A stretch of DNA of 64,000 bases from Loxodes magnus (lineage: Eukaryota > Ciliophora > Karyorelictea > Loxodida > Loxodidae), in contig CAMPDV010000380.1 of the NCBI GenBank assembly GCA_946699065.1, positions 1 through 64,000 of the forward strand, in the 5' to 3' direction. The translations under genes were made by a program, and so were the position numbers. A model generated the notes under the pieces. It was not told the DNA's origin, searched no databases, and saw only the letters and a program-made list of their open reading frames with translations. This document shows, piece after piece, positions 27,951 through 64,000 of the stretch (the stretch's first letter is position 1; the number at the start of each line of letters is the position of its first letter).

Positions 27951-28032
27951 AGTTTATTAAATCTTATTTAAAAATAAACGTTTTTTGTTTTCCTTTATTT
28001 TAACTTTTATTTTATTTTATTTTTCTCTTAAA

Positions 28033-31824: not shown

Positions 31825-31855
31825 TATCTTTTTATTAATTAATAAAAATAAAAAC

Positions 31856-31910
31856 GCCCAACGTGGAGCTCGAACCCACCAAATTAAGAGTCTGGCTGAG
31901 CTAGCCGGGC
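31856..31910 (-). ncRNA. 55-nt D-arm-less tRNA-Lys(CUU)-like sequence
   Basis: On the minus strand a 7-bp acceptor (GCCCGGC/GTTGGGC), a 5-bp anticodon arm CCAGA-CTCTTAA-TTTGG with anticodon CTT, and a T arm GTGGG-TTCGAGC-TCCAC all pair, and TTTTT follows directly. Compared with ordinary eukaryotic tRNA-Lys(CUU), the 3' half of the D arm and the variable region are deleted. The shared deletion in the copy at 31198 marks a repeat family rather than a lone pseudogene. Confidence 0.55.
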
Positions 31911-31919
31911 TTATTCTTT

Positions 31920-33130
31920 ATAACTCATCTTTCTTAAATAATTTTTATTTGTTTTATTATTGTAATTTTTTTTTACTTCATTTTTTTTTACTTTTTAAAC
32001 TTTTATATCATTTTTTTATCAATTTTTATTCGTTTCATTTTTTCTTATTTTTAAATTTTTGATTTATGTTTTATATTTTTTTCTGTTTTTTTTCTAATTG
32101 CTTTATAATGATTTTTTTTTTATTATAATTTTTTTTAAAGTAAGTGATTTGATATATAGATTTATGATAGATACTTATTTTTATTTATTCGAAAATTATT
32201 TTAATTAATTTTTTTTAATTTTTTATTATAATTTAACTTTTCTTTTTTTGTTTTTTCGATGTTTATGTTTACATATACAATATTTAACTTATATACAAAT
32301 TTTTAAGAAACGGTAAATTTTCTTTAAATTTAAATCTTTTTATGTTTGACTTTCTTTTAAATATTGATCAAATAGATTTGTAAGATTTTTTATTCTTTAA
32401 TTTATGAATTTTCGTTTTAAGACATATTAACTAATATTAAAAAAATATTTTAAGTGATTTTTTTATTATTAATCCAAAAAAAGTTTTTTAATCTATTCTT
32501 TTTGAATATAAATCATAAAAAAATTAAAATTAAATAAAAAATAAATAATTTGTTTTCTTTATGTTATGGCTCTTTTTGATTTCTAAGGTTTTTTATATTT
32601 TTCTCGAATCAAATTTTTTTTTTCTTCCAAAAATTTCTTTTTTCTAAGCAGCCTTTATTTTCAATTATTTTCTCATTTATCATAGTTGAAACCTCTATCT
32701 TGTTTTCATCTCTTTATATATAAAAGAAAAATTTATTTTAAAGGTTTTTATTAAGTAAAGGAATGGATATGAAAACGTGACATTTTTTTTTTTAATTATA
32801 ATAATTAAGTCTAATAAATAGGTTTGAAATGTTTACATTCTTTAGTTTATATTTACTTTCTTAATTTAAAAAAAAATTCATTTTTCGAATGTTTTTTAGA
32901 ATTTTTATTCTCTTTATAGGTGATTTTTTTATTATCATGCTTTTAAACTTTCTTAGTTAATAAAGTATCTAAACTTCTATTAAGATTTAGTTTTTTAATT
33001 TTTTAATTTAGTAAATAGTTTCTTATTATTTTTATCTTTTGTTAATTATTAAGTTTTATTTTACTTTTATATTGTAAAAGCTCTGTTTTTGGTAAATTTT
33101 TCTTTGTATTTAGCTCATATAAAGAATTTC
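31920..33130. other. T-rich low-complexity tract
   Basis: The plus strand is overwhelmingly T with long T runs to about 32700, then mixed A/T. No gene is seen. The strong T over A bias sets it apart from the other spacers. Confidence 0.5.
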
Positions 33131-34690: not shown

Positions 34691-34975
34691 ATATAGATAA
34701 GTGTTTTTTAGTTGTGGCTGAATATTTTCCATTTTGTTTGGCTTTAAAATTTTAAGATTAACTAAAATTAAAAAAATTATTAAGCTAGATTACATCTAAA
34801 GCATTTAAAGAGTTAAAGTTAAAGTTAAAAGATAATTAAAGTGCTTTAGTTAAGCTACTACATATAAGTATGCTTAATAAATTATTTATTAGTTTAATTG
34901 TATTTAAATTAAGTAAGTAAAATTTATTGACTTATTTTAATTAAATATTTATTAAAGTAAGTTATAAAAATTAAA

Positions 34976-36044
34976 ATGGAGAAAAAAGAAAAGCAATTTA
35001 CTAAAATTATTTTTTAAAGAAAACTCTTAAGAGCGAGAAGCCACATTCTAGGGAAAGTATCTCTACTTCATTTTAAGTATGAAATTCTGCCTAACTTATG
35101 CTACTAAAAGTTAATAAATAAGATCAGTTATGACCAAAGTAAAGGTATTTCTTTACTATTTTTTAGACTAAGTCATTAATAGCACTTCAGATGTTTTATC
35201 GGCAGCCATATCAAGTGACCTGAATTGAATTGTATCAGGTTCAGGATATCATGAATTTCCAATAAAAATCTGGAATTTCCAGACTGGTTCTCTCATAAGA
35301 ACTATAACAGGACATACTGATTATGTTAATTCGGTAGTAATCTCCTATGACTCTAGATATATTATATCGGGATATGCTGATAACACGGTCAAGATCTGAA
35401 ATTCATAGACTGGTTCTCTCATAAGAACTTTAACGGGGCATACTTCCTCAGTTAGATCAGTAGTAATCTCCTATGACTCGAGCTATATTATATCAGGATC
35501 TTACGATAACACCATAAAGATCTGAAATTTCCACAATGGTGCTCTCCAAAGAACTTTAACGGGATATACTTCTGATGTTATATCGGTAGTACTCTCCTAT
35601 GACGCTAGATATATTATATCGGGATCTTCTGATAAAACTATAAAGATTTGGGATTTCTAGATTGGTCAGCCTGTGCGAACTCTTACTGGGCATTCAGGTT
35701 CTGTTTATTCGGTGATAGTGTCTAAAGATAATAGGTATATAATATCAGGTTCGGATGACAATACTATTAAGATATGGGATTTCTCTTCTGGTTAGTGTAT
35801 TCGTACTCTTTAAGGTCATACAGATGTTGTATGAAGTATTAAGTTAAGTGTTGATTCAAGTGTTATCTTTTCTGGTTCAAGGGATAAAACAATCAAGATA
35901 TGGAACTTTGATAAGGGTGAGTGTATATAGACTTTATAAGGGCATACAGGATGAATATGGTATATAGCATTGAGTGTTGATAATAGATGGTTGATATCGG
36001 GAGGACTTGACAAGATGATAAGAAAGTGGAGAGTTTCGAGTTGA
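34976..36044 (+). CDS. WD40 seven-repeat protein, copy 4 (inverted)
   Basis: The gene is intact under the altered code: exon 1 34976-35144, intron 35145-35166, exon 2 35167-36044, 348 residues. N-terminal residues 1-57 match the other copies. Repeat 1 has lost its usual L-T-G-H (reads V-I-N-S-T), while repeats 2-7 keep the G-H-T/S-G-S-x-D/I-K-I-W pattern. TGA encodes Trp in five places, including V-V-W-S-I and G-W-I-W. The last TGA (36042-36044) follows V-S-S. Three TAG/TAA Gln codons sit at S-S-G-Q-C and T-L-Q-G-H. The partner and role are unknown. It is the most complete evidence that the family stays under coding constraint after leaving the duplication. Confidence 0.85.
35145..35166 (+). 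other. Predicted 22-nt intron (WD40 copy 4)
   Basis: The sequence is GTATTTCTTTACTATTTTTTAG, with one base changed from the other copies (TAATA to TACTA) but the same length and ends. Confidence 0.6.
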
Positions 36045-37095
36045 GTAACTTGCTATTTGACTTAATTTAATTTTACGATTAAAGATATAAGATATTGGTA
36101 ATGCATTTAAATGAATGTTTAATGTTAATAATGTTTTTAGTTATATGAAGTTTTTTAATTATTAATTAAAAATTTGTTATATTGTTAAATATTATTAGTT
36201 TAAAAAAAAGGTTGAGTGATAGGTTATAGAAATTAGTGAGGTATGTTGATTTAAAGTGGTAATGTTTAAAAATATTTAAAATATAATTTTATTAAAAGAA
36301 GACGTATAATAAATTTAAGTTTTATTTTATTCGATAAAATTTTATAGATTTATTTTTAGATTTTGTAAAAATTTCAAGTTAAGTATAAATTTTAATTTTT
36401 TTGTGGAGTAGTTAAAATATTATTTATAAGGTTAAAGTTGGTTTATAATCTTGATTATTAATTAAAAAATTTAATTATTTCGGGATAAAAATTCTGAATA
36501 GGAATAAATTTTTTTATTTCGGGATGAAAAAAGTTAAAAGGGAATAAAATTTCAAAAAAAATTTCAAATATAACAGATTTTTGAAAAAAATAGGAATTAA
36601 AAAAATTTTTTAGTATAATTAGAATTTGTAAATCTTCTTTTTAAAATGGTATTTTGTAAAAATGAAAACACTTATTTTTGTTTTAAGGAAAAATATTTGA
36701 TTTTTTTTGATTTTAGCAAATTTTTTGTTGCTTTTTTATTTCAAGAAAAAAAATTTGATAAGTTTAATTTTTTTGAAATTGAAAAAAAAAGCTATTGTTT
36801 ATGTTTTTGATAAAAATGAATTTTTTTTGACTTGAACTAAAATTTAAAAAATTTTAATTTCTTTTCAAGTAAATGAAAAACTAGTGATAAAATTTTTTAA
36901 TTTTATAAGAATTTACTTAATTGAGAAGGATCTCAATTAAAAAGAGAGAAAAGAAAGTAAAGAATGAAATTGGGAAAAATTATTTTTTATTTTTTAGCTC
37001 TGAGTCTTACACTTCAAAAGATTTTCGGGATGGATAAATTAAAAAAAAGGGTTAGATTTTTGATAGATATAAAAATTTTTAACAATGGTTTTTAA

Positions 37096-37374: not shown

Positions 37375-40300
37375 AAATGAAAATACTTAAAATTCACTAG
37401 TTTTAACTAGCGACTCTTCTTTAATTGATTATAAAAAAACTTCAAACTCGTAGATAAATCACAGGCAGGCGCATAAAAACCTCCAAATAAAAGAATTATA
37501 GTTGCTAAAAATCAAATAAGTAAACATAATAATGGATTTATTAAGAAAATTACTAAGTATCTGTAGTTAAAAACTAGAAAATAAGTTCTTACGCGTTCCA
37601 CTGAAATCACTTCGAAATTCTCTTCATCATGGACATAAATTTTAGCATCTATTGAAAGAAAAATAAACCTATAGGTAGAAAACTAGCTTAACCGCCTAAA
37701 ATACTTACGCCGAATATTTAAAAAGATCATCCAAAAAATCTTCTCAAAATTAAGATATTATCTAAGACACTCCGATCTCTTAAAATATGCTTTCAAATCT
37801 GAATTAAATATTAAATAAAAATATACTTTTACAATAGTCAAAAAGTACGTAAAATTTGATTTATTTTTGAATAATAGTAACCAGTAATTCGATTAAATTG
37901 AATGTAATAAAAACAGTTAAAAGTAAGACAATAATATTAATTCTGTTAATTCAAAGTATCACTATTTATCTGATCTTAAGAATTAAAATAAACAACTTTA
38001 ATAAAATGTTGACCCAATAAATGCAATATAAAATTAAGCAATTAATAATTAATTTAATGAAAATTAGTTTATTTAATAAATAAAAGTACTTAAATAGGAT
38101 ATATAAAGACTAATAGATAAGAACTTTTTATTAAATGAAAAATTAGATAGTACAGAAACAAAATACGAACTAGAAAAATAAACCTTGATAAATAACTAAG
38201 AATCATCAAAAGCATATTATAAAGCATATATTAATAAAATTAATTAGAAATTAAAAAAAAATTAGTTACTAAAATTTGACTTATAATATTATTAGAAAAA
38301 GTTATTGAAAAATAATTAAATATTATAACAGATAAAAAATAACTTATTAATAATTTTAAAGTAGAAGATTAAACTGAACAATCTCATTAGATAATGTTAC
38401 TTATAAATAATATCTTTCTTTAGTAAAACATAATTAATAACTACTTTTAGAAAATTTTTCAATAAAAATTTGAGAGGAATTAGTTTTAATTTTAATCCAA
38501 AGAGTAAATAAGAATTCATGAATAATCAGTATAAACAACCTATGTCAATTCTAAAGAGATAACTGTTGAAACAGATTTTATAATAAAATATATTGAATAA
38601 AGAACTTAAACTAACAATAGAGTTTTTATAAATTAAGAAGCGTAAGCGCAATAGATAAATTAGAAATGGACCAAACATAAACTGAAGAATCATAATTATA
38701 TTCAAAATAGGAATATTTAAAATAATAAATTTCTCTCTACTAATAGTAATTTTCTGGACAACAACACATTTGTAACTACTTTAAGAAGTTTGATAATAAA
38801 AGGCTAATATTGAACTTGAATTAAACTATATTTTTAATTATAATTAATAACTGAAATCTTAAAATTAAAAAGTAACTGATTAAGTATAAATATTATAAAG
38901 CTAACTTGAAATTTTTAACTTTGAATGAGAAAAGAAATATTCTTAGAAATCGGATTTTTGTAATAATCATTAATAGAATCTATAACTTAAAGAATTGGAT
39001 TATTAAAGCATATTAAGTTCATTACATTTGTAAAAAAAATAAGTATATCCAAGAATTTAAAGATGCTTTCAGATAAACAAAAATACCTTAACTATAGAAT
39101 GATTACACACAGGTTGAAATTTAATCCAGTGATTAAAAAATTCAAACAATTATTTTGACTTTAGATATGGCTACTGGAACAGACCTACTACATTTGAATT
39201 AAATTTCCTAGTGCGACTATATTGATTCTAAATACATAATAAATAATATGATCAATTAAATGAGTAACTAATCAATCGAATCAAAGCTTTTGATAAAGTT
39301 GCATAAGAAAAATGTACTTTAATGGAAAATCTGAAATAGAACCAAATTTTTAAGTAGTTAATTTCTTCCAATTTAACATTTCTATCCATAAAATTCTGTG
39401 AATAATCTTTTTAGATTTTCAACAACTCTCATTCATGAAATCTAAAATAGGATACTTAAGCAAATTCTTTGGAATAAGATTTTATAAATTAATTAAAGAG
39501 AAAACATCCAGATCCATATTTTCCATCTACTAAATAACATATCAATAAAATGGAAGAAAATTAGGCTTTTATAAAAAATTACAATGTTAATTCAAAATAG
39601 CTAAGAGACTTTATATTATCTAACTTTTGAAGAAGAACTAATTTCTAAACTATAATTTAAAGCAGATACGTTGTACTTGACTAAGAACTTGATAAAGGAT
39701 AGATTGACAGTCAAGTAGTTAAAATTAACATTGATAAGAGATTATTAAAGATATATAGCAGAAAATATCTCTATATTATAATTTAATTTTATGACTAAAA
39801 TAAATAACATTAAAAAATAGGTTCATCTTGAAATCAGTGGACAAAAAAAGAAATTTTAATTTATGAACCTGGGTGGAAAAGAGGCTCTTAACTAAATCAA
39901 CAAGGAAAAAAAATTATTTTAGATCAAGATAATCACTAAAGAGAAGTAGCGTCAATCAAATTAAGATTGGATATGTCAACAAAAATGGATTAGCAAGTAA
40001 ACTATATAAAATAGAAGAATTCATAAGAGAAAATAGTATTGACATTTTTCAATTAATGAAACTTGGTAAAAACAAGATTTCCATCCAATATTAATATAAG
40101 GTTATAGGACTTATTACAAAAATTCAGGAAAAGGAGGAGTGTATGTCTAGTTATTAAAGAAGAACTCAGTAGTACTGAAGAAACTAATATAATTGATGTA
40201 TCCTAGAATCGATTAATCATAGCCAAACTAGATAATATATTTATTACGCTCTGTTACATGCCAGATAATAGCTAAAATGAGAACATAAAAAACCAAGCAT

Positions 40301-45510: not shown

Positions 45511-48500
45511 GGAGATAAGTTTGCAGAAAAGATTCTAAATATTTTTGACAATATATTGCATCTTATAACCTATTTATTTTATATTTCCTCGAATTCTTCC
45601 ACATTTTCAATTAATCTCACATAAAATTAAGTTTTGTTTTATAAATCAATTTGCAGGAAAAATTATCTTTTTAAACTATAATATCATCTTATTACTGTTT
45701 ATCTTATAAAAGAATTGTTTTAATAATTAAGTTTTTATCTTTAAATAATCTAGCAATTTTCAGTTGATATCATACTTTATGAATAAATATAATTACAATC
45801 TTTAAAATATTAATAAAATAAATAAATGAACAATAAATAATGACTATTTAATTAGAAAATGAATATGAAAACATTTTAATTTAATTTCTTGATAAGATAT
45901 TTTAAATTTAAATAAGTGTTTAATCTTTTAAAAATTATATTTATTAAACCACTTTAAATATTATTATGCTTTGAATATTTAGTATCTTAAATTAAAAATT
46001 ACTATATTGTATATTAAACCAAACATTTATTAAAGGAATGCTTAAATTATCAATTATAATTTAGTTGTCTAATCATTTAGAATCAAACTAGCTCATTATT
46101 AAGGTTCTTTATGAAATTGTGTACTATTACCATTATCGGCTTAGTAGAAACTTTGCTTTTTATTATGCTATATATGTTTCTTTTTATATTGTACGAAATA
46201 TTTCCCATTTTTTATAGATATAATTATAATAGTTATTAACTTACACTTTGTATATTATTTTAATTAATACAAAAAATTAAAGCTTTTAACCTTTTTTGAT
46301 ATAATGAAGGTATATTGATTTCTTAATTATTTACACTTTCATTTTGCTAATTCTTATTATTTAATATTAGAATATAATTTTATTCTTATTTTAGATGGAA
46401 TATAAGATAATTTACAAGAAAGTGAAGATTTTTATAATTTTCCATATATTCAAATTATTTATATAGTTTACTAGCAAATGTTTTTATATGATAAATAATC
46501 AATCTATTTTTTAAAAAAGCTTTCAGCTTTAATAAAATAGCTTCATTAGAAATTCAAATTTTAAGATTAATAAATAAAATCGATTTTCTACATGCACAGT
46601 AGATATGCTTAAGTTGCTTAAAATCAGAAAGTTTATCTTTAAAGCTTTTCTTTTAATATTACAGAATGAGAAAAATTTTAAAGAGAAAAAATACTTAATA
46701 TAGCAATTTTTCTTAAAAACTTGTTTTCCTCTTCTAAATTAACATCTTTTCGCAAACTAAAAACAGATAGTTAGTCGTAGTAAGCTCTTTTCAAAACTCT
46801 TTTACTAATCTTAAATTTTTAATATTTTTATAATTATTATAATAAAGCAGAATATTTTTAAACTTGATTAATAAATTTTTGTTTCTATATTTTATATAGT
46901 TAGGTTAGATATATTATTTGGATCCTTGCTTAATTACTTTTTTTAGATTCTTTGTAAATTGGCATAAAATTTATTATTACAGATGTATTTACCTCATTTT
47001 TTTTATTTGATTGATCATATTTTTATAAAGAGATTTTTTAGCTCTTTTTAGATTAGTTATTTTTAAAAATTTACAATATCCATTAAAAAAATAGTTTTAA
47101 GCCCTCTTATAAAAAAAAATTTTACTGATTTTGTTTCTTCAAAAATTGTCATTTATTTTTTTATCTTTACTTCTTAAAAGTCATTTAAAAAACTTTTCAA
47201 ATCTTTTAAAATTCTATCCTTTAAGAAAAGGATTTATCCACCCGAAATTCTTTTGTAGCGTATAACTCAGAGCGAAAAAAGGATAATTTTTTCACGATTT
47301 CATGGTTATTTTATTATATCTCCTTTTTTCTTGAGATCCTTTTCATTTAAGTAAATTATTATAATATTAAAAATTTTAAAACAAATTTTTTCATTTACTA
47401 GAAAAGATGTTCAAAATTAAAAATTGTATTTTTTCCAAAGCATAAACAATAAATTTTTTTTATAATTTCAAACATAATTAACCTTATCAAAAATATACTT
47501 TTAAATAAAAAAGAAAAAAGTTTTTTTTTTTATTTTTAAACAAATTTTCTTAAAAGCAAAAACATTTTTTTAATTTTTACAAAATACCATTTCAACAAAA
47601 AAAATTTCCAAATTCTATTTTAATAAAATCTTTTTTTAATTCCTATTTTTTCTCAAAAATCTTTTATATTTGGAATTTTTTCTTGAAATTTTATTCCTAT
47701 TTTAAAATTTTTATCCCAAAAAAATTAAATTTATTCCGTGCCGAAAATCTTTGGTAGTGTAAAACGCTGAGCAAAAAAACAAAATTTTTATTTTCATGAA
47801 ATTTAAGCTCTAAAATTGAAAGATAATGATAAATAAAAAACTTAATATCAAAAAATTTTATAATCCATTCGGAAACGAAACATATTAAAATAAAAATAAA
47901 AATTTATTATTGAACTTAAACACAAGAATAAACAAATTTAAATAAATTTATTAACATATAACTTAAAAAATTAAATTAGCATCCAAAAATTCAAATTTTT
48001 TTTAGTTTTAAGTCTATTTTAAAAAAAAACCTATTTTACATATTAAAAAAATGTATCCCGTCCCAGAAATATTTATCAAAAAAAGTTTTCAAAAAAATTC
48101 CTTAAAAAAAATTTAAAGATTTTTAAAATTAATTTCCAAATTTAATTTCCAAATTTAATTTCCAAAACGATTTTAGATAATTATTTTCAAAATTATTTTA
48201 GAAACGCTTTTCTAAGAAATTTTAAAAACTTTTTTTAAATTTACTTTCAAAAAATTTATTCCTATTTAGAATTTTTTATCCCAAAATAATTAAATTTATT
48301 CCTATTTAGAATTTTTTATCCAGAAATAAAAAAATTTATTCCGTCCCAGATATCTTTGGTAGTGTAAAACGCTGAGCAAAAAAAGAAATTTTTTATTTTC
48401 ATGAAATTTAAACTCTAAAATCGAAAATTAATGATAAATAAAAAACTTAATATCAAAAAATTTTATAATCCAATCGGAAACGAAAAATATTAAACTTAAA

Positions 48501-49038
48501 TATTAAAATTTTATAATATCAATAAATAATAATAATCAATCATAAAAAATAAATAATAAAAAAACAAAATTTAATTTAATTTAAAATAAATAAAATAAAT
48601 ACTTAATTAAATTTTTTAATTAATAATAAAGATTATAAACTTACTTCACCTTATAAATAATATTTTAACCACTTCACAAAAAAAATGAAAATTTATACTC
48701 AACTTGAAATTTTTACTAAATCTAAAAATAAATCCATAAAATTTTATAGCATAAATTTAAACTTTAACTTATTTCATTCTTTCATTTAACAAAATTATAT
48801 TTTAAATATTTTTAAACATCACCCAGTTTAAATCAACATACCTCACTAATTTCTATAACCTATCACTCAACCTTTTTTTTAAACTAATAATATTTAAGAA
48901 TATAACAAATTTTTAATTAATAAATTAAAAAACTTCATATAACTAAAAACATTATTAACATTAAACATTCATTTAAATGCATTACCAATATCTTATATCT
49001 TTAATCGTAAAATTAAATTAAGTCAAATCATAAGTTAC
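45511..49038. repeat. Unit A, copy 3: left arm with sub-repeats
   Basis: Begins at gataagtttgcag like copy 2. It has two 40-base units at about 48259-48340, and the ~165-base block twice (47725-47885 and 48335-48495). No gene is supported. Confidence 0.75.
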
Positions 49039-50126
49039 TCAACTCGAAACTCTCCATTTTCTTATCATATTGTCAAGTCCTCCCGATACCAACCATCTAT
49101 TATCAACACTCAATGCTATAGAATCTATTGCATATTTATGCCCTTATAAAGTCTATATACACTCACCCTTATCAAAGTTCCAGATCTTGATTGTTTCATC
49201 GTAAGATCCAGAAAATATAACACTTGAATCAACACTTAACTGAATACTTCATACATAACTTGAGTGACCTTGAAGAGTACGAATACACTAACCAGAAGAG
49301 AAGTCCCATATCTTAATAGTACTGTCAACATAACCTGATATTATATACCTATTATCCTTAGACACTATCACCGATAAAACTGAGTCTGAATGCCCAGTAA
49401 GATTTCGCAAAAGCTGACCAGTCTAGAAATCCCAAATCTTTATAGTTGTATCAGAAGATCCCGATATAATATATCTAGATTCATAGGAAATTACTACCGA
49501 TATAACATATGAAGTATGACCCGACAAAGTTCTTTGGAGAGCACCATTGAGGAAATTTCAGATCTTTATAGTAGTGTCTTCAGATCCTGATATAATATAT
49601 CTAGAGTCTGGGGAAATTACTACCGAGGTAACTCTAGAAGTATGTCCCGTTATAATTCTTAGGATAGCACCAGTCTATAAGTTTCAGATCTTGATCGTGT
49701 TATCAGCAGATCCTGATACTATATAGCTAGAGTCTGAGGATATTACTACCGAGTTAACTGAGGAAGTATGTCCCGTTAAAGTTCTTATGAGAGCACCTGT
49801 CTGGAAATTCCAGATCTTTATAGAATTTTCTGGATATCCTGAACTTGATACTATTCAATTCAGGTCACTTGATATGGATAACGATAACACAGCTGAAGAA
49901 TGAACAGTAAGGATTTAATCTAAAAAATATTAAAGAAATACCTTTACTTTGGTCATAACTGATCTTGTTTATTAACTTTTAGTAGTATAAGTTAGGCAGA
50001 ATTTCATACTTAAAATGAAGTAGAGATAATTTTCCCTAAAATGTGGCTTCTCGCTCTTAAGAGTTTTCTTAAAAAAATAATTTTAGTAAATTGCTTTTCT
50101 TTTTTCTCCGTTTCTTTTTTCTCCAT
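49039..50126 (-). pseudogene. WD40 seven-repeat protein, copy 3 (frameshifted)
   Basis: Exon 2 (49039-49919) is intact with seven WD repeats and the shared TGA end. Exon 1 (49942-50126) has one extra base near 50029 (gataatttt against gatatttt in copy 2), so the spliced frame breaks inside L-G-K-x-S-L-L. The 15-base N-terminal expansion of copy 2 is present. Repeat 1 begins L-T-V-H instead of L-T-G-H. Either the copy is inactivated, the base is a sequencing error, or translation starts at an internal ATG in the unspliced frame. Confidence 0.75.
49920..49941 (-). other. Predicted 22-nt intron (WD40 copy 3)
   Basis: Same sequence, length and position as in copies 1 and 2. Confidence 0.55.
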
Positions 50127-51525
50127 TTTAATTTTTATAACTTACTTCAATAAATATTTAATTAAAATAACTCAATTAATTTTACTTACTTAATTTCAAT
50201 ACAATTAAACAATTAAATTATTTATTAAGCATACTTATAAATATCTTCTAAAACATTGATTTTTCTATTTTTGTCTTAAAAAAAGACAAGATAATAAACT
50301 AATAGTGTACAAACTTTTACAATTTTAATTATTTTATATCCTTTTACTTTTAAATATAAGGATAATTTATTATATCAAAAGTTTTATAACGAAGAATTAT
50401 ATCCTTATTATAATAACTTTAATATGCATTTATTAGTTACTACTTATTTGTGCTTTAAATCAAAGACTCTTAATAAGAATAACTTATTTCTTTATAGACC
50501 CTTTTAAATAATAAATAAAATATTACAATTCTTTTAAATCTACTGTTATTAATTATTATTTTTCACTTACATTTAATCAAAAAATTATTTGTTTAATCTT
50601 TTTACTAATTAAAAAAAATTAAATAAAATAAGTTTCTTATTAATTAGTTTGAATAAATATTAAAAAACATCAAATTATTTAAAAAAAAACATTTTTAGAA
50701 TTTATAATATAAACTCTTTTAATTGCCCACTTTCTTACTACTATTTAATTAAAACTTTTTATTTATAATGGTCTCTCTTATAATTATAAACTAATATAAT
50801 TACTTATAATGTTGATTCTAAGCAAAATATATAAATGTAATAAATATAAGTAGTAAAAAGTAAATATTTAATCTAACTATAAATGGTGTATCACTAATTA
50901 TATCTTACAATTATTAAATAGTAATATTTAATTTTATTATTAAAATAAGCTTTAATATGTTTAATTATATCTATTAAATACTTAATATTTTATCCTTTTA
51001 GCTTTATTAGTTATTAATTAATTTCTCTTTAATTTAGATATTAGATTAGTTATAATTAATACATTTAGATAACTTTCTCTTTTTTCAGCAAACTAATATT
51101 ATATTTATTATTTATGTTATTTTTGTAATTATCATTTCTAATTAATAATACCTAAATTATTCTAGATTATTTAAAGATAAAAACTTAATTCTATTATTAT
51201 ATACAAATCTATATTATATTGTTAACACTATTAATACTCTCTTTCTTAAAATTAGTTGTTTGTTACTAAGAAAATTATAAGCTTATAAGAAAGCATATTT
51301 TTACTATCTTCTATTATTATTTTCCGAATTAATAGAAAGAGTAAACTTAACATAATATGTTTCTTTGTAATAAGTATGAGATAATATAAGTATTAGATTA
51401 GCTAGTATAAGCTATTTAAAACTAAAATTAAAGCCACAATAAATCCTAGTCTAGTTGACTTTAGTCATAAAATTTAAAAAGAATACAGTCTTTAGTAGTA
51501 ATAAGAAAGGATTTAAATAAACATA

Positions 51526-52560
51526 ATGAAAGTGAGAAAAAAATTAAACCTACAAGATAAGAGTTTTAAAGCTTAAATTTAAATTTATTAATTAAAAGAT
51601 TTAAGAATATCATTTGCTATCTAGAATGAAATAGCTGCTAAACTTTAATTTTTTTCTGAATAAATTAAAATAATCAATTGCAACCAAAAGGCATGTTTGA
51701 TATTTAAAAAATATTTAAGTTTGCAAGTAGTTACAAATTGGATATTGAGCATGGTTTAACAAGTGCTTCTTAAGAAAAATAGAATAACAAAAGTTTTATA
51801 GAAGAATAAATATTATAGAATTCCAGTGCTTCTAAATAGAAAAAAAAGAAGTCACTAAAATTTAATTAATCAAAGTCTTAAATAAAAAAGTTGTGATTAA
51901 ATGAGAAATGTATATGTCCAAAGGGGTTGCCAAAATGTCTATTTTGAACTTATAAATCTAAGAATTTTCCTTTTGAAAAAAACAAAAAAATGTAAATCCT
52001 TCTAGAACTAGAATATTCAATGGCTTTTATAAAATTTAGATTGAAATATTCATGCAATAGCTCGAGATCTAAATTCTCAAAGTAGCATAATTTTACACAC
52101 TCTTTAAGTTTTTCAATTTCTTGATTATCTTAAATCAAAAGTTTTCAGTTACGTTTATTTTTTATTCTCTTAGGAATATAAAAATTGCTGTCTTTTTCTC
52201 CAACTTTGCAATATCTTAGATTGAATTTGCTACTTCATTCACTACACTATTCAATAGGCATAAATTTAAATCCCAAAACTACAACATTCATACTTTAGTC
52301 TTTTGAAAACATTATCAGTCTAATCCTTTAAAGCTCTATATGCTTAACTTCCCTTTTCTTAATTTAGATCATATTACCCTAATTGATTTTCCTTATATCT
52401 CTAAGCTAAAATAAACCTAAAATATTAACTACCATAAAAAGCATTAAAGCTAGATTTTATTTTTAAATTAGTTTATTGATACTTATTAGCAAATTTCTTG
52501 TAAATAAAAGCTTAGAATGAAATATATAGTATATTTAAAGGTTTAATGTATCTTGTTAGT
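51526..52560 (+). pseudogene. Cys-rich ORF of segment B (D2 copy, frame-broken)
   Basis: Starts M-K-V-R-K-K-L-N-L-Q-D-K like the D1 copy, but an extra base near 51650 shifts the frame and the third Cys codon is TTT. About 95 bases present in D1 are missing near 52165. Confidence 0.4.
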
Positions 52561-52677
52561 TTATTAAGATACATAAATAAGAAGTATTATACAGAATTAG
52601 GCTATCTTTAATTAAAGATACTGAGTCTAGTAATCTTAATAATATATTAATTTAACTAGTAATGCTCCAATAAATAA

Positions 52678-54022
52678 TCAATTAAATACTTTAATGGATT
52701 TATTAACTCTGAGGCTAGTACTTTGAAGTTGTTTTTTGGTCAGTTTGAACTTGCTTTCTTCTCTAATCATTTCAATTTACTGCTCATTGATATGTAGTTC
52801 CTCGCTCTTACACTTAGTTTGTCTTTCTTTAACATAAATTTTAAGAAGATAAACTGAAAGAAACTAAGCCAGCAACTAAACTATCTTAATTGATTCATAT
52901 AAGCAAACAGCTACTTTGAAGGTAAATCTACTTCATAGCCTCAATATTGTAAATCTTCTAAAAAAGAGTCATATGAAGTTGTCTATTTTCTTTTACGAAA
53001 AGCTTTAAAATAAATCTATCAAATTTTTTTGTTTTAAGCTCCAGATTCCACTTATTAGGTAAGTAAATGATATATATGTTCCTTAATCCTTAAATCTTAT
53101 AGCTTAAATTGATTATTTTTTTGCTTTTTTCTTCCCTTTTAAAGAAAGTTGCTTATTATCTTTTTACTGCTAGATTAAACTCCTCATTGTAGCTTAGCTC
53201 TGAGACTAAACTTGCAATTTAAAAAATTGAAAGCAGGGAGTTTAAAAAATTTTTACTAGTCAGCTTTACTTGGCAGTTATATTCAGCATGTTAAAAGTAA
53301 TAGGAGACTCATTGAGAATCTTTAATTTTAAATATCTATCGTTGATGGGATATTCCTATACTTTTTTCTTTTTTTAATTCCTTTAGTTCAAACTATTCTT
53401 TCATAGTAATAATTTTTCTAAACCTCTGCTGGTTTTATCAGATAATCTTTAAACTATATTTAGTTTCTTTCAAATCTACCCGTTTATATCCAACGAGGTC
53501 TGGATTAAAAGCTAACCGTCTATTTCGTTTCTATCTTTGAAGATGTGACTTTATTTTAAAGATTAAGTTTCATACTGGGAATGTTTTGTTTTTGGTATTT
53601 CGTCTTTTTCTGTTTCTTTGATTTTATTCGGGTATCAGGCTTAATATTATATATATCAAAATATAGCGAAAAAACTTCCAAAGCTTGATTAGTCTTCTAT
53701 ATATTTTTCTGTTTATCAAGCATTTCTAACTACAAAAATATCGCAATTCTAGCAATGAAGTTAAGTAGAAATCAGACAGCAATTGAATGTTCTCCGCAGC
53801 CTTCATCAAAGAGTTCAAAATTTTTAGCAATCCTTAGAGAAATTAACATCACTAATAAGAATCTCTCGTTTGGAAGTATTTGAGGCTTTTAAATATTTCT
53901 TAGATGAATTCATAGACAAAACCAGTCAAGCAATTAATGACAAATATAAGATTGTCCAAATACCTCGCTTTATCTTAATTTTAAGCTCATTCTTAGTGTC
54001 TATTATTTGCTTCATTCAACAT
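52678..54022 (-). pseudogene. Unidentified protein with frame breaks
   Basis: The minus strand reads as about 430 residues in several frames, each with good codon texture: F-E-L-F-D-E-G-C-G-E-H-S-I-A-V-W-F (about 53805-53755, W=TGA), K-E-T-E-K-D-E-I-P-K (about 53615), L-N-E-S-P-I-T-F-N-M-L (about 53300), L-V-S-E-L-S-Y-N-E-E-F-N-L-A-V-K-R (about 53190) and a C-terminal coil I-N-E-Q-Q-I-E-M-I-R-E-E ending at TGA 52678-52680 after K-V-F-N. ATG at 54020-54022 is one possible start. I recognise no family. Confidence 0.4.
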
Positions 54023-54325
54023 TCTCTACTTTTTACTAAAATTTGGACTATAGAAATTGATATCTGACTCTGTCTTTTAGATCACTGTTTCTTATTAGAA
54101 TAGAATTAAATTTTCATCTTGCTGACTTTTCTTTAATGTTCCTTTATTCACCATATAAAGATCTAAAGGAATTGCCAATAAACAACTTCAAGTAAGTTTT
54201 TAAGCTTCACATATTACTAGACTAGACTAAGGTTTTTATTAGATCTCACTATCTTGAATCTATTAAACTGATTGGTATTCAAACGTAGTAAGCTAATTAC
54301 ACCTCACTCACTATAACTACAAATA

Positions 54326-55149
54326 ATGGTAAACCTTAATATATTTAAAAGAAGTAAAAGCTTGTTATTTTAATAGCAACTTATTTTAACCTAAATAGAC
54401 AAATAATTAGATATTAAAGTAGCAAGGATATAAGATTAACAACCTAGCTTAATTAACTAATCACTATATCCTAATTTTAATAGCCTAGCATTATTATATT
54501 ACAGTTACTAAGACTATTAGCAACCCTTTATTTTAACAAAGCAGCTTATTAGTATTATATATTTAGTGCTTTAATGTAAAGACTATAAGAGATATACTTA
54601 TAACATTTAAATAATTATTAACCATGTATCTTAGTAATAGCACATCTATATACTATTGTAGAACTTTTAATTTTATAGTGGAAATAGTTAATATGCTTAA
54701 TTTATTATATTTTTGGTTATTAAACAATATAATGCTAAAAAGGCTAAAGACTTTTTTAAAAAAACTAATACAAAATTTTATCCTTCAAACAAATTCCTGG
54801 AATACAAATTCTATCAATATTGGAATTTTCGCAAAAGATTTACCCAATAGGTGGAAAATTCTAAAGAGCCTTAAATGATTATTTCTTTTATCCATAGGCT
54901 ATTAGCAAACAGACTTGAATAATATTGTACGACTTTATAATTATAATATGTTAGATTAAAAGTGAAGATCAGTAAGACTCTTAAGAAATAATATAACTAG
55001 GAATAAAGCTAAAATATCAATTCCATTTTGAGGGTTTCTAATACTTATTTACTAATAAGTATCGAATAGCATTTATTTGATAATTATAAACTTGATAGTG
55101 TTTGTTTAATATAATATAGAGAAGGTATTAAAACATTTTGTTAGAAAAA
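54326..55149 (+). CDS. Unidentified ORF upstream of LINE1
   Basis: From ATG 54326-54328 one frame gives about 270 residues with Gln from TAA/TAG throughout: an N-terminal polar part, a hydrophobic Ile/Leu/Tyr-rich centre, and a basic C-terminal part with Y-Q-Y-W-N-F-R-K-R-F (about 54800) and S-F-I-H-R-L-L-A-N-R-L-E. No frame break is visible. It has no TGA before running out of frame into the LINE 5' end (first TGA about 55195), so its own 3' end may have been cut by the LINE insertion, or it may be upstream retroelement sequence. Confidence 0.4.
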
Positions 55150-58100
55150 AAATGGACGAAATATAGAATTCACTAGTTTTTAATAGTGACTCTTCTTTAA
55201 TTAATTTCAAAGAAGCTGCAAATTCATAGGAAAAGCATAGGCAGGTGCATTAAAATCTCCAAACGAAAGATTTGTAGTAACTACAAATTAAATAAGTAAA
55301 CCTAATAATGAATTTATTAAGGTAACTACTTAAAAATTGTAGTCAAAAACCGGAAAACAAATTCATACACGACCATTAAAACTACTTAGGAACTCTCTTC
55401 AACGTGGATATTAATTGTAGCGTATTATGAAAGTGAAATCAACCTATAAATAGATGAACAGATTAACCGCCTAAAATAATACCGCGAAAGATACGAAACG
55501 ATTACCTAAGAAATCTTTCCAAAAATAAGATATTATCTTAGATAGTTAGAATTCTAAAGATATACCTTAAAATCCTAATTAAAATTCAAATAAAGATATC
55601 CTTTTATGATAGTCAAAAATAACATAAACTTAAGATTAATTTTTGAATAATACTAATTAACAATTCTATTAAATTTCAAATAACTAAATTAATCAGAAAT
55701 AAAATAATATTACTAATCCTGATAATTCAAATAATCATTATTTACCTGATCTTCAGAGCAAACAACCTTAAAATTAAACTGCTGATTTAAGAAATGTAAT
55801 ATAAAATCAAATAATTAATTAGTCTAATGAGAACTTATTTACCTTAGAAATAAAAGAACTTAAACATAATATATAAAGACTTATAGATAAGAACCAATAA
55901 TTAAATGAAATGCTAATTAATATAAAAGCAAAATATGAACGAGATATTGAAACATTGATAAGTAACTAAGAAATATCCAAAATATATTATAAAACTTATA
56001 TAAATAAAATTTATTATAAATATAAACAATTATAGAACAATTTTTAGTCAATCAAATCTGATATATAGCAATATCACAAAAAATGCTATCAAAATAACTA
56101 GTTCATAAAATTACTTAAACAAACTTCTCCACTTATTACAGTAACTAAATAGTTTAAACAGATGAAATAATTAGTATAGTTCAAGAAATTTAGATATAAT
56201 AGAAAAACTATGAGAATTAAGTCAATTCAATAGATGAAATATAATCTAATTAAGAGATTCAAATTGAAGCTAATGCTAATTAAAGCTTTACTTAAGCTTA
56301 AATGATAGGAGTAAATAATTCACTATGCCAAAACTTTAATAAAATTAGAAATTTTACTTAGATTGAAATAGATAACTTTCTAAATAAAACTTAGCAAGGA
56401 TATCAATAGACTATATTAGAATAGAACTAATATTTACTTTAACAAATTACCTAATAAAAAATAATAACCGAAATTTAACTCCAAGAGTTATATTCTTAAT
56501 ATTAAAAATTATAAAACTAAAATAAGTAATTTATAGATTAAGAATAGAAAGCTTAAATGGAAATTTTAACTTTTAAAATCGAATTAGATAAGTAAAGATA
56601 ATAAAACTATGAAATAAATATAGCTTTTCAAAATTAAATTCTATTAAAAAATAAGGAAATTCAAATGTATAAAGAATTATTTTAGAAGAAGTAATTAGTA
56701 GATGCATAAACTTAGACATTATATGGAAATATTTAAACAAAGGATAGTATTATCTAAACAGATAATATAAATAAATAATAAACAGCTTTTTTGTGTCAAA
56801 AATTTACTCAAACAAGTATAATCAAGCAAGACAAGTTAATGTAAACTTAAAATAATTAATAGAAAGCATCAACTAATGCTATTATAACATAACATAATAA
56901 CTAATACTGTCAAGTTAAATTGCCAGATGAAGATTTTGTTTTACTATAGCATTAATATCACTAACTCAACTTAAAATTCATTTAAAGTACCCAAAATATA
57001 TAGACACTTGAGATAAAAATAGAAGTGTTTTAAAAACTTAATTAAAATTTGAAAACAGATATATTTAATTATTCTACTAAAAGATGACAAAAAGATTAAT
57101 AAAACTAAACAGATTCGATCGATGCTATTTATCAGAATTAAACCTTATCTTCCAATATTAATCTTAATATTCTTAAAAGGAAACATGAAGAAGAAGATAA
57201 AACAATTCCACCAGCAAAACGTATGAGTAAACATAATAATAAAAAAGAGTGCGATTAAATAATATGTTATTTCAATCTGACTAGTCTATAACTTTAAAAG
57301 TTTATTAAATCAGAAACTTGAAGACGTCCATAGTACGAAATGTACAATATATAAGGTAGATATGTCACAGTTTCTTAAGATTTAGAATAAGGTACATGTG
57401 ATAGTGTGAAAAGTAAAATTGATATAGATAGAAAGCTACTTAAAAAATATACGACGTAAGTAATATATATTTTGATACAATATTTTCATTAACATCCTGA
57501 GTATGGAAAAAGATTAGTACATATTTAGATTAACCAATAAGGATAGAAAAGCATTTGCATTTACGAAAGTAGTCTACCTGCAGGATCGGAAAAAATTAGA
57601 AAGGACTAATAAATTTAAAAAATAAAGATGGGACATATAAATATTAATGGAATAGCGAGCAAGTGCTTGAATATTGAAGAATTTATCAGAGATAACAGTA
57701 TAGATATTTTATCAATAAACGAAACCTGATAAAAAGATGACTTTCCTCCAATATTGATAAATGGATTTAAAACATATTTTAAGAACTCAGGAAAAGGAGG
57801 AGGTGTATGCTTAATTGTAGGAGAAGAATTTAATAGTACAGAAATACATATATAAGTTGAAAAAAAAAAAATCGATTCATAACAATTAAACTGGATAATA
57901 CTTTAATCACGTCTCGTTACATGCCTGATAATGGAAAAAGTTAAGATGTTAAAGATTTAGCTTATGAGCAACTAAATACATTGCTGAATTTATATAATGA
58001 TAATCCACATATACTAATGGGAGATTTCAATGCTCTTTTATAAGGCTTCGGTGATAATCCTGAAAATGCTTATGATAATAACATTATATTATAAGAATTC

Positions 58101-61065
58101 TTACTATAAAACGATCTTGAGATAGTGAATGATAGCAACATTAATACATGTATTCACAAAGGAACAGGAAAAACGTATTGTAATGATTATATCATTATAA
58201 ACAACCATTTGAACGTTAATTAGTTTGCAAATTTCACTGCTCATAATAATAGTTTATTTTCTGATCATATTCCAATCACTGTCGACTTTATCAATAATTC
58301 TATAGTATATTGGGAAAAGATAACTCAGAGAAAATATAAAATAAATAGGTTATAAGATGCAATAGATAGGCAAAAATATTAAGAATCTTTCCTACAAACT
58401 TATCTAGAATTCTTTTAAATAGATTAAGATAATCTTGAAGATTAATATGAATGCATCAAAAGTAATATTTAAGACAATGCTGATCAAACATTAGGTTCGT
58501 TTATTCCAGACTCAAATTATAACAAACTTCCTCGAGCTCGCACAAAGAAATATATAGAGGCAAAAAGAGCTAACTCAGAATATAAGGAAGCTCACATAAA
58601 ATTTGGAAGAATAAACTAGCAAGTAATTAATCTTCATGAGGTAGCAAAACGACTTTGGAAAGGCTTCAAGTATAATCTATGAAAATTAAAAAAAACAAAG
58701 CAAAAAAGAAATTTCTACTTCTTAATGGAGATTCTAGGGAAATTTTTTCACAAGCTAAGAAAATTCTAAACCCTTTGAAGAGAAATACTATGAACTTTAA
58801 TTAAGAAATCAAAAATAAATTCATTGAATCATGGGAAAATTGTGTTTTTAACAAGTATTCTAATCTAACTCAAGAATAGATAAATCTTAGTAATTAAAAA
58901 ATAGATAAAATATACGATAATATTTAAGAAATTAAAGATTATCCACTCTCGTATTTGTAAGGATTTTATCTTTTTACCATACAAGAAATACAAAAAATTA
59001 TAAAAGAAATTATGAATGGAAAAGCAGCTTTTTCAGCTTGAATAAAAAGTGAACTTCTGAAATATGGTGGATAATATTTATTAATAATTCTTCATTCTTT
59101 TCTGAATAATATGCTAAGACTTGGAAGAATCCCTTAGGAATTAAATTTATCGGTGATAATTCCAATATTTAAAAAAGGAAATAAAGATGATTGGAAACTG
59201 ACGACCTATTTCTCTTATTAATACTATTCTAAAACTATATGATAAAGCTTTAACAAAAAGACTATACAATCTGATTTATTAGAGAAATTTGATTCACCCT
59301 TCATAAATGGGATTTATGAAAAACAGATAAACAACTTAATAAATTTGAATAATATAACAAATAATTGATAACTATCGGAAATGTGCTAAAGGTAAGACTA
59401 AATTGATAGCAACACTGATAGACGTTGAAAAAATGTTTGACTCAATAGAAAGAAGACTCTTGTTTGATTAACTTAAGAGAGTTAAACTACCACTTGGAAT
59501 AATAATAGCCTTAGAATCGTTTTATAAAAACCTAAATTCTTCATTTATCATAGATGGAAAGAGCACCAGAACTTTATAATTTAACAATGGAGTTATGTAA
59601 GGAAGTTCTCATGGACCAGTTTTAGCATTATTATATTATGACATAGTAATTAGATATCTGGAAAGTAAAAGTAACTAATTGGGATTTAAATGCCAGGATT
59701 CAAGTATTAGCTTCGCTTGTAGAGGATGGTTAGATGATCTTATTCTTCTTTCCAAATCTGCAAAGTAGATGTAGGAGTTAATAAATGAAACAAGTAAGAT
59801 TTTTGCATAAACTCACTTAAAGATCAATGTTATAAAATCTGAATGCATATAAATTTTAAAGAGAAATTGGGGATAATAAAACTTAAATTTATGATTAGAA
59901 AGTGAACCAATTATTTAAAAAGATCAAGTAACATATTTAGGTGTAATTCTACATAAGAAGAAGAATTTTAATCCTCATTGTTGAGAAGTCGCGTTCAAGT
60001 ATAAAGCTGCAATGAAGAAAGCTGTTTTTTAACTGATGAGATATAAGAATGTGACTCCTTGACATTTTAAAACTTATGAGACATTTTATGCTACCTAAAG
60101 CAGAATATGGAGGAAAACTAGTACCATGGTGTATTCAAAAAGGAATAACTGGAGTTTTGAATAGAATTGAGTCAAACATGAGAATGATTCCAAAAAAGCA
60201 TTTTAAGCAGCAATTTCAGCTTTTAAAAATCATGCTATATAGATTTAAACTTGCTACTTTTTAAGTACATTATGGCAATAAAGTTTTTTAATTATAATAT
60301 AAAATGAATTAAGAAAGCATTGATTTTCCAACATCGACAATAGGCTCTCTTTTCGATACCAACTGGAAAAAAGGGTTTCAATACTATGATCAAGTTTAGC
60401 AACTATCAGACCTCTATAGTATCAACCTGTAGAATTCCAAGATTAATACTAATTAAAAAACCTGAACTAAACATATAGGAGACAAAATACAAAATATTTC
60501 TATAATACAGCTACTCAAAAATTTAAGAGAATGAAAATAGCTAAAATATATACTGAGTAGTTTAGTAATCATAACCAATTTCCGCTAATTACTTATACTA
60601 AGTTGAGCAAATAATTTAGACAAGAAATTATCAGTATATATAAACTTAGAACCAAATCCTATAATTTTCCAAAAGATCTTTAAGATCGTCACTATCTTAT
60701 TGATAATCCCTACTGTATGTGTGGAGATTATGATACATTCGAGCACATTTTTAAATGTATATACTATTCTAATATAAGAGATTGACTATATTATAAAATT
60801 AAGGATTTATAAACTCCTTTCCGAAGTCTTATTGTATATTTAGATTTATAAATAAAAATATTTCGCAAGAAACTTGTTTCAAGAAGACTAGAATTATTAG
60901 AAATGGAAAAAGCAAAAAAGAAAGAAAAAAAGATGATATTATAACAAGAGTAATTATAAATTGATGAGATCAAGAATATAATTAAAAAACATTAACAACA
61001 TTTACTAATATCTATAATTGAAGGAAGCAATTCTTGCAGTTATAGATGTACAAAAACTCATTTAG
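55150..61065 (+). mobile_element. LINE (copy 1), full-length APE-type non-LTR retrotransposon
   Basis: About 5.9 kb. The 5' end is set by where similarity with LINE copy 2 begins (55150 and 37375), the 3' end by similarity with the 3' ends at 17785 and 44020 (motif tgaaggaagcaattc near 61023). The order is N-terminal region, long coiled coil, small folded domain, AP endonuclease, RT, post-RT region, zinc knuckle and a Lys/Glu-rich tail. I see no poly-A tail beyond the general A/T richness and could not define a target-site duplication. Confidence 0.8.
55152..61060 (+). pseudogene. LINE polyprotein: coiled coil, AP endonuclease, reverse transcriptase, zinc knuckle
   Basis: From ATG 55152-55154 (M-D-E-I-Q-N-S-L). 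After early frame breaks, one frame runs from about 56161 to the endonuclease with no stop: Gln-rich coiled coil to about 57160, a basic K-R-K-H...A-K-R-M patch (57173-57255), a domain with G-R-Y-V-T-V-S (about 57345), then M-G-H-I-N-I-N-G (57628). Endonuclease motifs: N-E-T-W (W=TGA 57727-57729), G-D-F-N (58019-58030), S-D-H (58260-58268). RT: motif A L-I-D-V-E-K-M-F-D-S (about 59415), motif B M-Q-G-S-S-H-G-P (TAA=Q at 59598), motif C W-L-D-D (59727-59738). The knuckle C-x-C-x7-H-x3-C is at 60714-60758. Single-base breaks near 57870, 58690, 59195 and 60080 make it inactive as written. It would reverse-transcribe its own RNA at nicked target DNA. Confidence 0.8.
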
Positions 61066-61538
61066 TTTAAAATTAAAATTAAAATAAATTAATTTTCTAT
61101 ATAATTCAAGGTTAAATTCTCAAAATATTTTTTAAAGAGTAATAATAATAAAAATTTAGTTTATTGCTCAAATTAATAAATTAAAGTATAATAAAATATC
61201 TTTACTTTTTAGACTTGAATAAAAATCTAAAGAACAGTAGACTTCTTCATCGATTGTTATTTTAACATATTGTTTAATGTAAAAAAATTTAGAATATGAA
61301 AATTTAAAAATGACCAATATAGAATAATTTCAGTATAATCTAATTTCTTTCTAATTAAAATACCCAAGCTTTTAATACTCTTTTCTTTAAATTTTAAAAT
61401 TTTTCTAGTTTTTCATTCAAACCTTTTAATAATAATTAATATAAATACATCTTCCCATTATTATTTTTTATATTATAGCTTACAATATTATTATACTAAG
61501 TTACTTTGAAATATAAGCTTTTATATATCTATTAATTG
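61066..61538. other. AT-rich spacer
   Basis: No coding or RNA signal seen between the LINE 3' end and the next gene. Confidence 0.5.
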
Positions 61539-61940
61539 TCACTTCTAAAATGTAGCAAATAAATTATATGGAATTAAGATATAAAGTTTAGTTATATCAA
61601 TCTAGTAAATAAATAATAAATAAGATTAGAGAGCGTGTAGCAACTCAATGGCGGGCAGCTCTTTTATTAAGATTTTTAAAGTCAAAAGAATTTTATTTCT
61701 GAAGTCTTCCACGGTGCTAGCATCTTTTTTGAGTTTCGTCTTCTATAGGGTGTGATTGGAAAGCTCCCTAAGAAACCTTAGTAACTGGCATATTTCTTAG
61801 ATAACATTATTTGATGCCTCTTTATTCTTTGCCTTCTTTCTTTGCTCCTACCAAGATTTTTGTTCGTTTCTTCTCCCATGGGTACTTCCTGCTACCAGAT
61901 CTTAAGGCAATCTGAATTAGAGGATTGCTCCTCCCTATTT
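61539..61940 (-). CDS. Unidentified small basic protein
   Basis: A G+C-raised island. The minus strand reads E-E-Q-S-S-N-S-D-C, then in-frame ATG 61877-61879 (M-G-E-E-T-N-K-N-L-G-R-S), a strongly basic stretch K-E-R-R-Q-R-I-K-R and P-Y-R-R-R-N-S-K-K. A one-base gap in an A6 run (about 61728) separates it from D-A-S-T-V-E-D-F-R-N-K, then L-K-I-L-I-K-E-L-P-A-I-E-L-L-H-A-L, ending at TGA 61539-61541. Codon texture is good. The basic segment suggests nucleic-acid binding, but I recognise no family. Confidence 0.45.
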
Positions 61941-62498
61941 ATTTTATGTATAATGATTTCATTTATAAATAAGCATTTTTCTTAAGAGTTAAAGAGAAAA
62001 TTAAGATTAATAATTAGCATTAATAGAAGTCTTATATTCATATAGCAATTATTTAAATACTTGATGAGAAATCATCTAACTTTAAGAATAAAGAACAAAG
62101 TAATAGGCAAATTTTATTAAGTATAATTATGATATTTCTCTATTTATTTGCTATATAGCACAATTCCATAGAGATTATAATTTTTTAATTGGTTAAGTTC
62201 TTAAACTTATCAGTCACTTAAAAAATAATTGTGGCTGATGTTGAGATTGTTTCTTATGATTACGCTAATACTCTGTTCTGCTTATATATAAATGGCTTAA
62301 TTAATATTAAGCTGCACTAATTTCAAAGTGGCTTATAATTATTACTATACGCTAGTTTAATAAAACTTTATCTCTTAGGTTTGTTAAAAGAAAAAGGGTA
62401 ATCGTTTCTATAATCTAAAACATATTTAAACAAGTTATTTCATACTTCTAAAACTAAGAAAAATGATTGCTTTTAAATATCTACAAGGAAATTTATGT
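61941..62498. other. AT-rich spacer
   Basis: Nothing recognisable. It separates two minus-strand genes. Confidence 0.4.
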
Positions 62499-63901
62499 TC
62501 ATTATTAAGAGGAATAATGCCTAATCTGAGAGTATATAAAATTTAAATACGGTGTAGTGATTCTCTTTTTGTAATTAAATAAGATTATTGCTTAAGTGAT
62601 AAAGAGAGTTGTAGATTATTAGAAGATAGTGCAAAATAGCTTAAATAATTATTGGCGTATTTTTTAAATAGGTATGGGATTTTCACTGAAACTATCAAAG
62701 CAATCTAACAGATTTTTATTAGTGCAAGCATCAACATATTAAACATCTCCACTATTTCCATAATGGATAAATCCCCATTAACTTTTATCATTCATCATGC
62801 ATTCTCTTGATAACAATCTTTTCCTTTTCGCTTCTTCCATTGGTAAATTAGAAACGATAAAAGACAAAATTACTCCTACCATGTTTCTGTTTATCTTTTT
62901 TAAAAGAATTTTTCTTGCTTAAGTGTAAAATGAAGTACTTTCTAAAGGTTTTTCGGGATCTACTATAAAAAAGTTTATAAAAAGCCTTGACAGGGGCTCA
63001 TTTGTATAGTTTTCTAGACTTAGAAATTTGTGAGGCAATTCATTAGAAAATACAATTGCGGATCCTTCTTTAACATCTACTGTTTTTGACATCTATATAT
63101 TAATGCTCTTAGCATAACCGGGATCTGGTCCTACTTTATCGACAGGAAATTTTCTATTTTTACGTAGTAAACTCCTGCAGCTACTATATTTTCTGTCTTT
63201 CCTTCTACATGTCATTTTCCTGAATACCATGATTCAGGAGCAATTACATATTTCTATGCCTTTACTACCACTTATAATTTATTCAGTTAATTTTCTTTTA
63301 CAATATCCAACTTCTTAAAAGCAGGAATCATGGCTTTGAAAACAGTAAATAAGTGATTATAGAGAGTGACATTTTTTTGAATATCTAAGTTTCTTATTTC
63401 TCCTCCAATCTTTACTTATTCTTTTTCGTCTATTCAAACATCTACTGGAAGCCATGCATACTTTGATCGCTCGTTATTAAGCTCACTATATTCACATTTA
63501 AGCTATCTTTCAGTCTACTAAGTCTTTTATTGGTTTTTAAGCAGAGGAGCAATGAAGTAGTTAGGATTGAGATCGGGGTCTATGATATCTAAGACAGGTT
63601 TATCTTCATGTCAATCATTAAGTTTTTATCCTAACTGCTCTAATTCCTACTCTAATTCTTCCTTGACTTTTATAGTTACAGGTAGTTATTCCGAAAAAAA
63701 AAGTGGATATTTCAAATTTCCACTTCCTCCATCACCATAAACTACGAATTAATCTTTTCCAATTTAGGTAAAAATTTCACATGGACATTGTTATTCTTCC
63801 TACTACTCTACTTTATCCTCTTGTTAAGGATTGCTCCATTCATATTCTTAAACGTTTTTTTATAATTATTTATCCTTCTTATTTTGCATGCTTTCTTCCA
63901 T
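62499..63901 (-). CDS. DUF4246-family protein (2OG-Fe(II) oxygenase-like)
   Basis: From ATG 63899-63901 (M-E-E-S-M-Q-N-K) the minus strand gives about 465 residues. Family landmarks in order: I-I-D-P-D-L-N-P (about 63585), Y-A-W-L-P-V-D-V (about 63450), V-V-V-K-A-Q-K-Y, W-Y-S-G-K-W-H-V-E-G-K-T-E-N-I-V-A-A-G-V (about 63225-63165), V-K-E-G-S-A-I-V-F-S-N-E-L-P-H-K-F (about 63070-63020), F-F-I-V-D-P-E and S-T-S-F. The H-V-E and later H-K-F would supply the metal ligands if the oxygenase-like fold is active; its substrate is unknown. The Trp of K-W-H-V-E is TGA (63212-63214). One frame break lies near 63146-63156 (I-E-N-F to P-V-D-K-V-G-P). About 150 C-terminal residues beyond the domain are poorly conserved-looking; the end is set at TGA 62499-62501. 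Confidence 0.7.
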
Positions 63902-64000
63902 TTTATTTTAACGGCAATCTAAGCTCACCAAAATATCTTTAATTCTATATATAATTTAAAAGCATTTGCTTATATTGTTTATATACCTACAAAATGCTAA

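Follow-up and report, generated by a model that had tools for sequence, protein, structure and literature searches.

Genes and elements in the window

The window studied here is a stretch of 64,000 nucleotides at the start of contig CAMPDV010000380.1 of Loxodes magnus, and our subject is the genetic code in which its genes are written. It is AT-rich (GC 14-28% across the window in 2-kb steps), and under the standard code no open reading frame (ORF) of at least 150 codons is found anywhere in the 64,000 nt. When TAA, TAG and TGA were masked as X, the window translations matched reverse transcriptases of the L1 and R2 types (best E 6.4e-14) as well as WD40 proteins (best E 8.4e-170). Since standard ORFs of this length are absent and yet masked translations match proteins, the pattern is more than chance. 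Standard gene calling on the contig yields nothing useful, and an unusual genetic code could be detected from the raw sequence alone.

On the forward strand we found a copy of a long interspersed nuclear element (LINE). Its endonuclease part (57628-58300), presumably of the APE type, was recognised by eye from its motifs and has an apparent frame break at ~57858 near a poly-A run. The reverse transcriptase (RT) domain of the same LINE, RVT_1, lies at 59172-59951 (Pfam E 1.2e-29 when TAA/TAG are read as Gln and TGA as Trp). In the endonuclease motif N-E-T-W, the tryptophan is encoded by TGA at 57727-57729 and followed by TAA for glutamine, as a direct check of the bases confirmed. A sister endonuclease copy on the same strand (39960-40260) has TGG at 40064-40066 in this motif, then TAA. 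In RT motif B, G-V-M-Q-G-S-S, the glutamine codon is TAA (59598-59600), and in an alignment with stops masked the L1 ORF2p carries Gln opposite it. The first-pass annotation had pointed to these TGA, TAA and TGG codons, and all three are where it placed them. Judged by eye, the reading frame of the LINE copy as a whole (57628-60200) seems to break at two or more places, among them near 57858 and 59197, and the copy looks dead.

Parts of four WD40-repeat gene copies were found at 24340-25299, 2500-3459 and 49039-49998 on the reverse strand and at 35085-36044 on the forward strand; their proposed terminal TGA codons are 24340-24342, 2500-2502, 49039-49041 and 36042-36044, respectively. The tryptophan of the K-I-W motif was counted in six repeats of each copy and is TGG in 16 and TGA in 8 of these 24 repeats; three further regular-expression matches outside the WD genes were left out. 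In the 24340-25299 copy, TGA serves in two of the six counted repeats (24985-24987 and 24859-24861). A DUF4246-like fragment on the reverse strand (63212-63676; best Pfam stretch 63311-63676, E 2.1e-16 with the same Gln/Trp reading) has TGA at 63212-63214 for the tryptophan of W-H-V-E-G. The earlier assignment of TGA to tryptophan in both motifs thus stands.

The WD40-bearing segment, up to ~5 kb long, is present three times in the same orientation and in part a fourth time inverted (1-4740, 21377-26595, 34859-36477 and 46078-51295). Six-frame Pfam scans covered 8501-13400, 28001-32900, 51901-56800 and 59101-64000, and in these four stretches nothing except RVT_1 and DUF4246 rose above the cut-off. 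ARAGORN, set to the bacterial code, and Rfam gave zero matches in the window. Self-trained coding-region models stayed near their seeds and were set aside.

Meaning of the three codons in conserved genes and reverse transcriptases

Conserved genes from elsewhere in the genome were aligned with the three codons masked, and the residue facing each was counted by eye in the first aligned PDB chain. The combined TAA/TAG tally comprises one gene for the release factor eRF1 (L040) and three actins (L087, L088 and L089); a fourth actin, L090, was translated and not aligned. The masked eRF1 reached a best E of 4.5e-153 (chain 4d5n/1dt9, which we take to be human eRF1) and the actins 2e-157, 2.3e-189 and 7e-210. 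In the 436 codons of L040, glutamine stands opposite 7 of the 13 TAA and 2 of the 7 TAG codons, and in the actins opposite 6 of 20 TAA and 4 of 13 TAG. Together this makes 13/33 for TAA, with Glu as the runner-up at 4, and 6/20 for TAG, with Lys, Ala and Ser at 3 each and Glu at 2. Tryptophan faces 3 of the 5 actin TGA codons (W79 twice, W340 once; Thr and Gly face the others) and 2 of the 4 in the WD40 gene, both in K-I-W, with Thr and Arg opposite the remaining two.

Some of these codons fall at sites that we take to be invariant, among them W79 and W340. The catalytic glutamine of the eRF1 GGQ motif is TAA, as is the glutamine of IQAVL in actin, and the two glutamines of FQQMW in actin L088 are TAG TAG. 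The meanings given in the first-pass annotation, TAA/TAG for Gln and TGA for Trp, fit the genes that were tested (LINE, WD40, actin and eRF1). The main actin gene has dozens of near-equal-scoring copies, often several per contig (C266, C437, C707, C711 and others), and most of them contain 7 TAG and 2 or 3 TAA, unlike the divergent actins.

We also followed codon exchanges among LINE reverse transcriptases. A search of the assembly for RVT_1 gave 3403 candidates, and the 150 that were scored matched; a published account reports ~2,700 RVT_1 and ~1,200 endonuclease copies in the L. magnus macronuclear assembly (PMC11441545). Clustering at 95% identity reduced 24 RT copies, one of them taken from the window and the other 23 from the genome, to 8 clusters, and representatives that were at least 60% identical were compared. 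Single-base exchanges of TAA were seen with CAA (25) and TAG (17) and never with TGA, and those of TGA with TGG (24) and never with CGA. TAG-TGG exchanges were likewise 0, and the comparison pairs CAT-TAT and CAC-TAC gave 3 and 0. Because TAA-TGA and TGA-CGA are transitions, just as TAA-TAG, TAA-CAA and TGA-TGG are, plain decay should not leave them at zero.

The RT alignment columns were tallied as well: Gln accounts for 4.52 of 39 TAA columns, against a background of 2.3%, and Trp for 1.55 of 16 TGA columns, against 0.5%. Taken alone, this plain tally does not single out either residue; both are well above background. The RT copies of the genome include two LINE families that are ~28% identical. 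In six RT representatives (L091, L093, L094, L095, L096 and L103) tryptophan is TGA 35 times and TGG 7 times (n=42); each eRF1 gene, like the main actin L089, uses TGG throughout (4/4 each).

Gene ends and the choice between codes

The end codon was TGA at all ten gene ends examined, and TAA or TAG at none of this small sample; that these are the true ends was judged by homology or by where coding character is lost, and not on transcripts. TGA directly follows RKCF or RKCY in four of four actins, DEDFL in both eRF1 copies, and the last blade (WR[IV]SS) in the four WD40 copies of the window. In-frame TAA and TAG come as near as 14 and 17 codons to a gene end. With no TAA or TAG at any of these ends, the code is that of NCBI table 27 and not of table 28. 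The last sense TGA before the stop lies 36, 298 and 39 codons upstream in three actins, and none occurs in the fourth actin or in either eRF1 gene. These distances agree with a depletion of sense TGA over the ~20 codons before the stop, described in PMC11441545.

The window is almost certainly nuclear DNA of a karyorelict ciliate, Loxodes magnus, read with table 27: TAA and TAG mean glutamine, and TGA means tryptophan internally and stop at gene ends. The taxonomy entry for L. magnus is Karyorelictea, and the published description of table 27 for karyorelicts includes Loxodes (PMC11441545). The code of the window is therefore one already described and not a new one. It is of interest because a single codon, TGA, is both tryptophan and stop. 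The first-pass annotation was right that all three codons have sense meanings, and it left out the termination at TGA that we found at all ten ends. It had named karyorelicts and Condylostoma as possible sources; the karyorelict part is very probable, and the table 28 of Condylostoma finds no support in ten ends that are all TGA.

Several results weigh against this assignment. Variable sites are diverse: a residue other than Gln faces 20 of 33 TAA and 14 of 20 TAG codons, and one other than Trp faces 4 of 9 TGA codons. The RT columns rank Gln third at TAA, behind Lys and Glu, and fourth at TAG, and they rank Trp fifth at TGA. The exchange figures are counts over sequence pairs and not independent events, and they include the non-synonymous TAA-GAA (17), TAA-AAA (12), TGA-TTA (7) and TAA-TCA (2), with CAG-TAG seen just once in RT pairs. 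The ten gene ends represent just three families with related copies. In addition, no tRNA with a CTA anticodon appeared among the matches listed, though TAG is common.

Three other explanations were considered. Under table 28, the code of the Condylostoma type, TAA, TAG and TGA would each be sense internally and each stop translation near the mRNA end. Its sense meanings are identical and it is published for Condylostoma magnum, as described in PMC4967479; with TGA at every end examined and in-frame TAA and TAG so close to the ends, we consider this code very improbable. Even less probable is a code of the Blastocrithidia type, with TAA/TAG as glutamate and TGA as tryptophan. The glutamates opposite 4 of the 33 masked TAA codons and the 17 TAA-GAA exchanges in LINEs would suit it; however, glutamine faces TAA about three times as often as glutamate, TAA-CAA exchanges (25) are more numerous, the GGQ glutamine itself is TAA, and the TTA-anticodon tRNAs resemble tRNA-Gln. 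Equally hard to credit is the view that the in-frame stops mark decay, and that dead LINE copies or pseudogenes were simply translated across them. The frame breaks in the window LINE and the abundance of repeats are what decay would produce, but conserved full-length genes each contain between 9 and 21 standard stops in frame (20 and 21 in the eRF1 copies; 9, 13, 16 and 17 in the four actins), and the exchanges follow synonymy, with TGA-TGG at 24 and TAA-TGA and TGA-CGA at 0.

tRNAs, eRF1 and the reading of UGA

ARAGORN, run over nine loci of the genome, assigned the anticodon TTA in three and TTG in six. The TTA tRNAs are identical to the tRNA-Gln(TTG) of the genome at 57-61 of 72 nt, compared with 29/73 for tRNA-Lys. 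One pattern search gave 86 matches, all listed, with 6 TTA and 80 TTG (counted by eye); among the 100 of 351 matches listed in another, 78 were TTA and 22 TTG. None of the matches listed in this second search was exact for a CTA or CTG anticodon, and such tRNAs may lie among the unlisted matches or in sequences unlike the pattern. As CTA is missing from the matches listed, UAG may be read by wobble. The first-pass annotation had proposed a search for UUA, CUA and UCA anticodons: the first is present, and the other two (CTA and TCA in the gene) are not among the matches listed. On contig C214 (232599-237600) at least 19 TTA-anticodon tRNA genes form a tandem array with units of ~275 bp. Genes for tRNA-Lys are tandemly repeated too, so amplification is not peculiar to tRNA-Trp.

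For tRNA-Trp, 100 of 130 matches were listed and all have the anticodon CCA: 48 on contig C67, 49 on C148 and 3 on C110. Those on C67 and C148 stand in tandem arrays (L043-L055 and L058) with units of ~187 bp and ~241 bp, respectively. A search with a TCA pattern gave no exact match; the 100 of 129 near matches listed are all CCA, with 48 array copies on C67 and at least 51 on C148. In all 71 array copies of the fetched stretches that passed a script filter (35 in L058, 10 in L054 and 26 in L055) the top pair of the anticodon stem, 27-43 in the tRNA numbering that we assumed, is open. The open positions are A-C on C67 and T-C on C148, with four pairs below. The C110 genes L042 and L057 have a five-pair anticodon stem; L056, also with five pairs, was rejected by the filter and has an unusual T-loop box. 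A tRNA-Trp with a 4-bp anticodon stem was reported earlier in Loxodes, according to PMC13092985 and PMC12005148. The Loxodes genome paper suspects that low-complexity repeats were misassembled (PMC11441545), and the copy number of the arrays may be affected by the assembly.

Two eRF1 genes, L040 and L041, lie 35 kb apart on contig C196. Both retain GTS, NIKS and GGQ when compared with human eRF1 and differ from it by Glu55 to Ala, Thr58-Ala59-Ser60 to Arg-Ala-Gln, Ser70 to Ala and Tyr125 to Phe, with residue numbers read off the alignment. These changes would suit a factor that ignores UAA and UAG and is weak on UGA. The best eRF1_1 match, L039, was judged by eye from its translation to be pelota and not eRF1.

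The codon meanings, gene-end codons, tRNA genes and eRF1 sequence observed here suggest the following mechanism, in which charging and expression are supposed. Charged with glutamine, the UUA-anticodon tRNAs would read UAA and, by wobble, UAG, and the tRNA-Trp(CCA) with the 4-bp stem would read UGA as tryptophan. The changed eRF1 would not act on UAA or UAG and would compete with this tRNA for UGA, and it would win solely near the mRNA end. The competition and the dependence on the 3' end are taken over from a published model, which PMC4967479 puts forward for Condylostoma and Parduczia. A further idea is that gene dosage sets the balance between tryptophan and stop at UGA in Loxodes, with the 4-bp-stem tRNA-Trp amplified into the two arrays, which differ in their unpaired bases, and a few 5-bp-stem genes serving UGG; we regard this as rather unlikely. 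If it were true, LINEs, where Trp is mostly TGA, would depend on the 4-bp-stem pool to a greater degree than the eRF1 genes and the main actin, which have TGG only. How the cell decides between the two meanings can be tested on concrete parts, namely the arrays of tRNA genes and the altered eRF1.

Compared with table 27 as known from L. magnus, we found the same sense codons, the same TGA stop and many RVT_1 copies, and no differences; the six genes examined likewise lack a sense TGA close before the stop. Condylostoma magnum shares the sense meanings, and its TAA and TAG stops, described in PMC4967479, were not seen at the ten ends here. Reading of UGA by a 4-bp-stem tRNA-Trp(CCA) is described for Blastocrithidia and for Condylostoma as well, and reported for Blepharisma and Loxodes, in PMC13092985. 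With that system our data share the open top pair of the anticodon stem and a change at eRF1 Ser70; among the 100 of 129 near matches listed here, no tRNA-Trp had a TCA anticodon. The genome differs in carrying two tandem arrays with 5-bp-stem genes alongside, and its open positions are A-C or T-C, compared with C-U in the case set out in PMC13092985. At the Ser70 position of eRF1, the residue is alanine here and glycine in Blastocrithidia.

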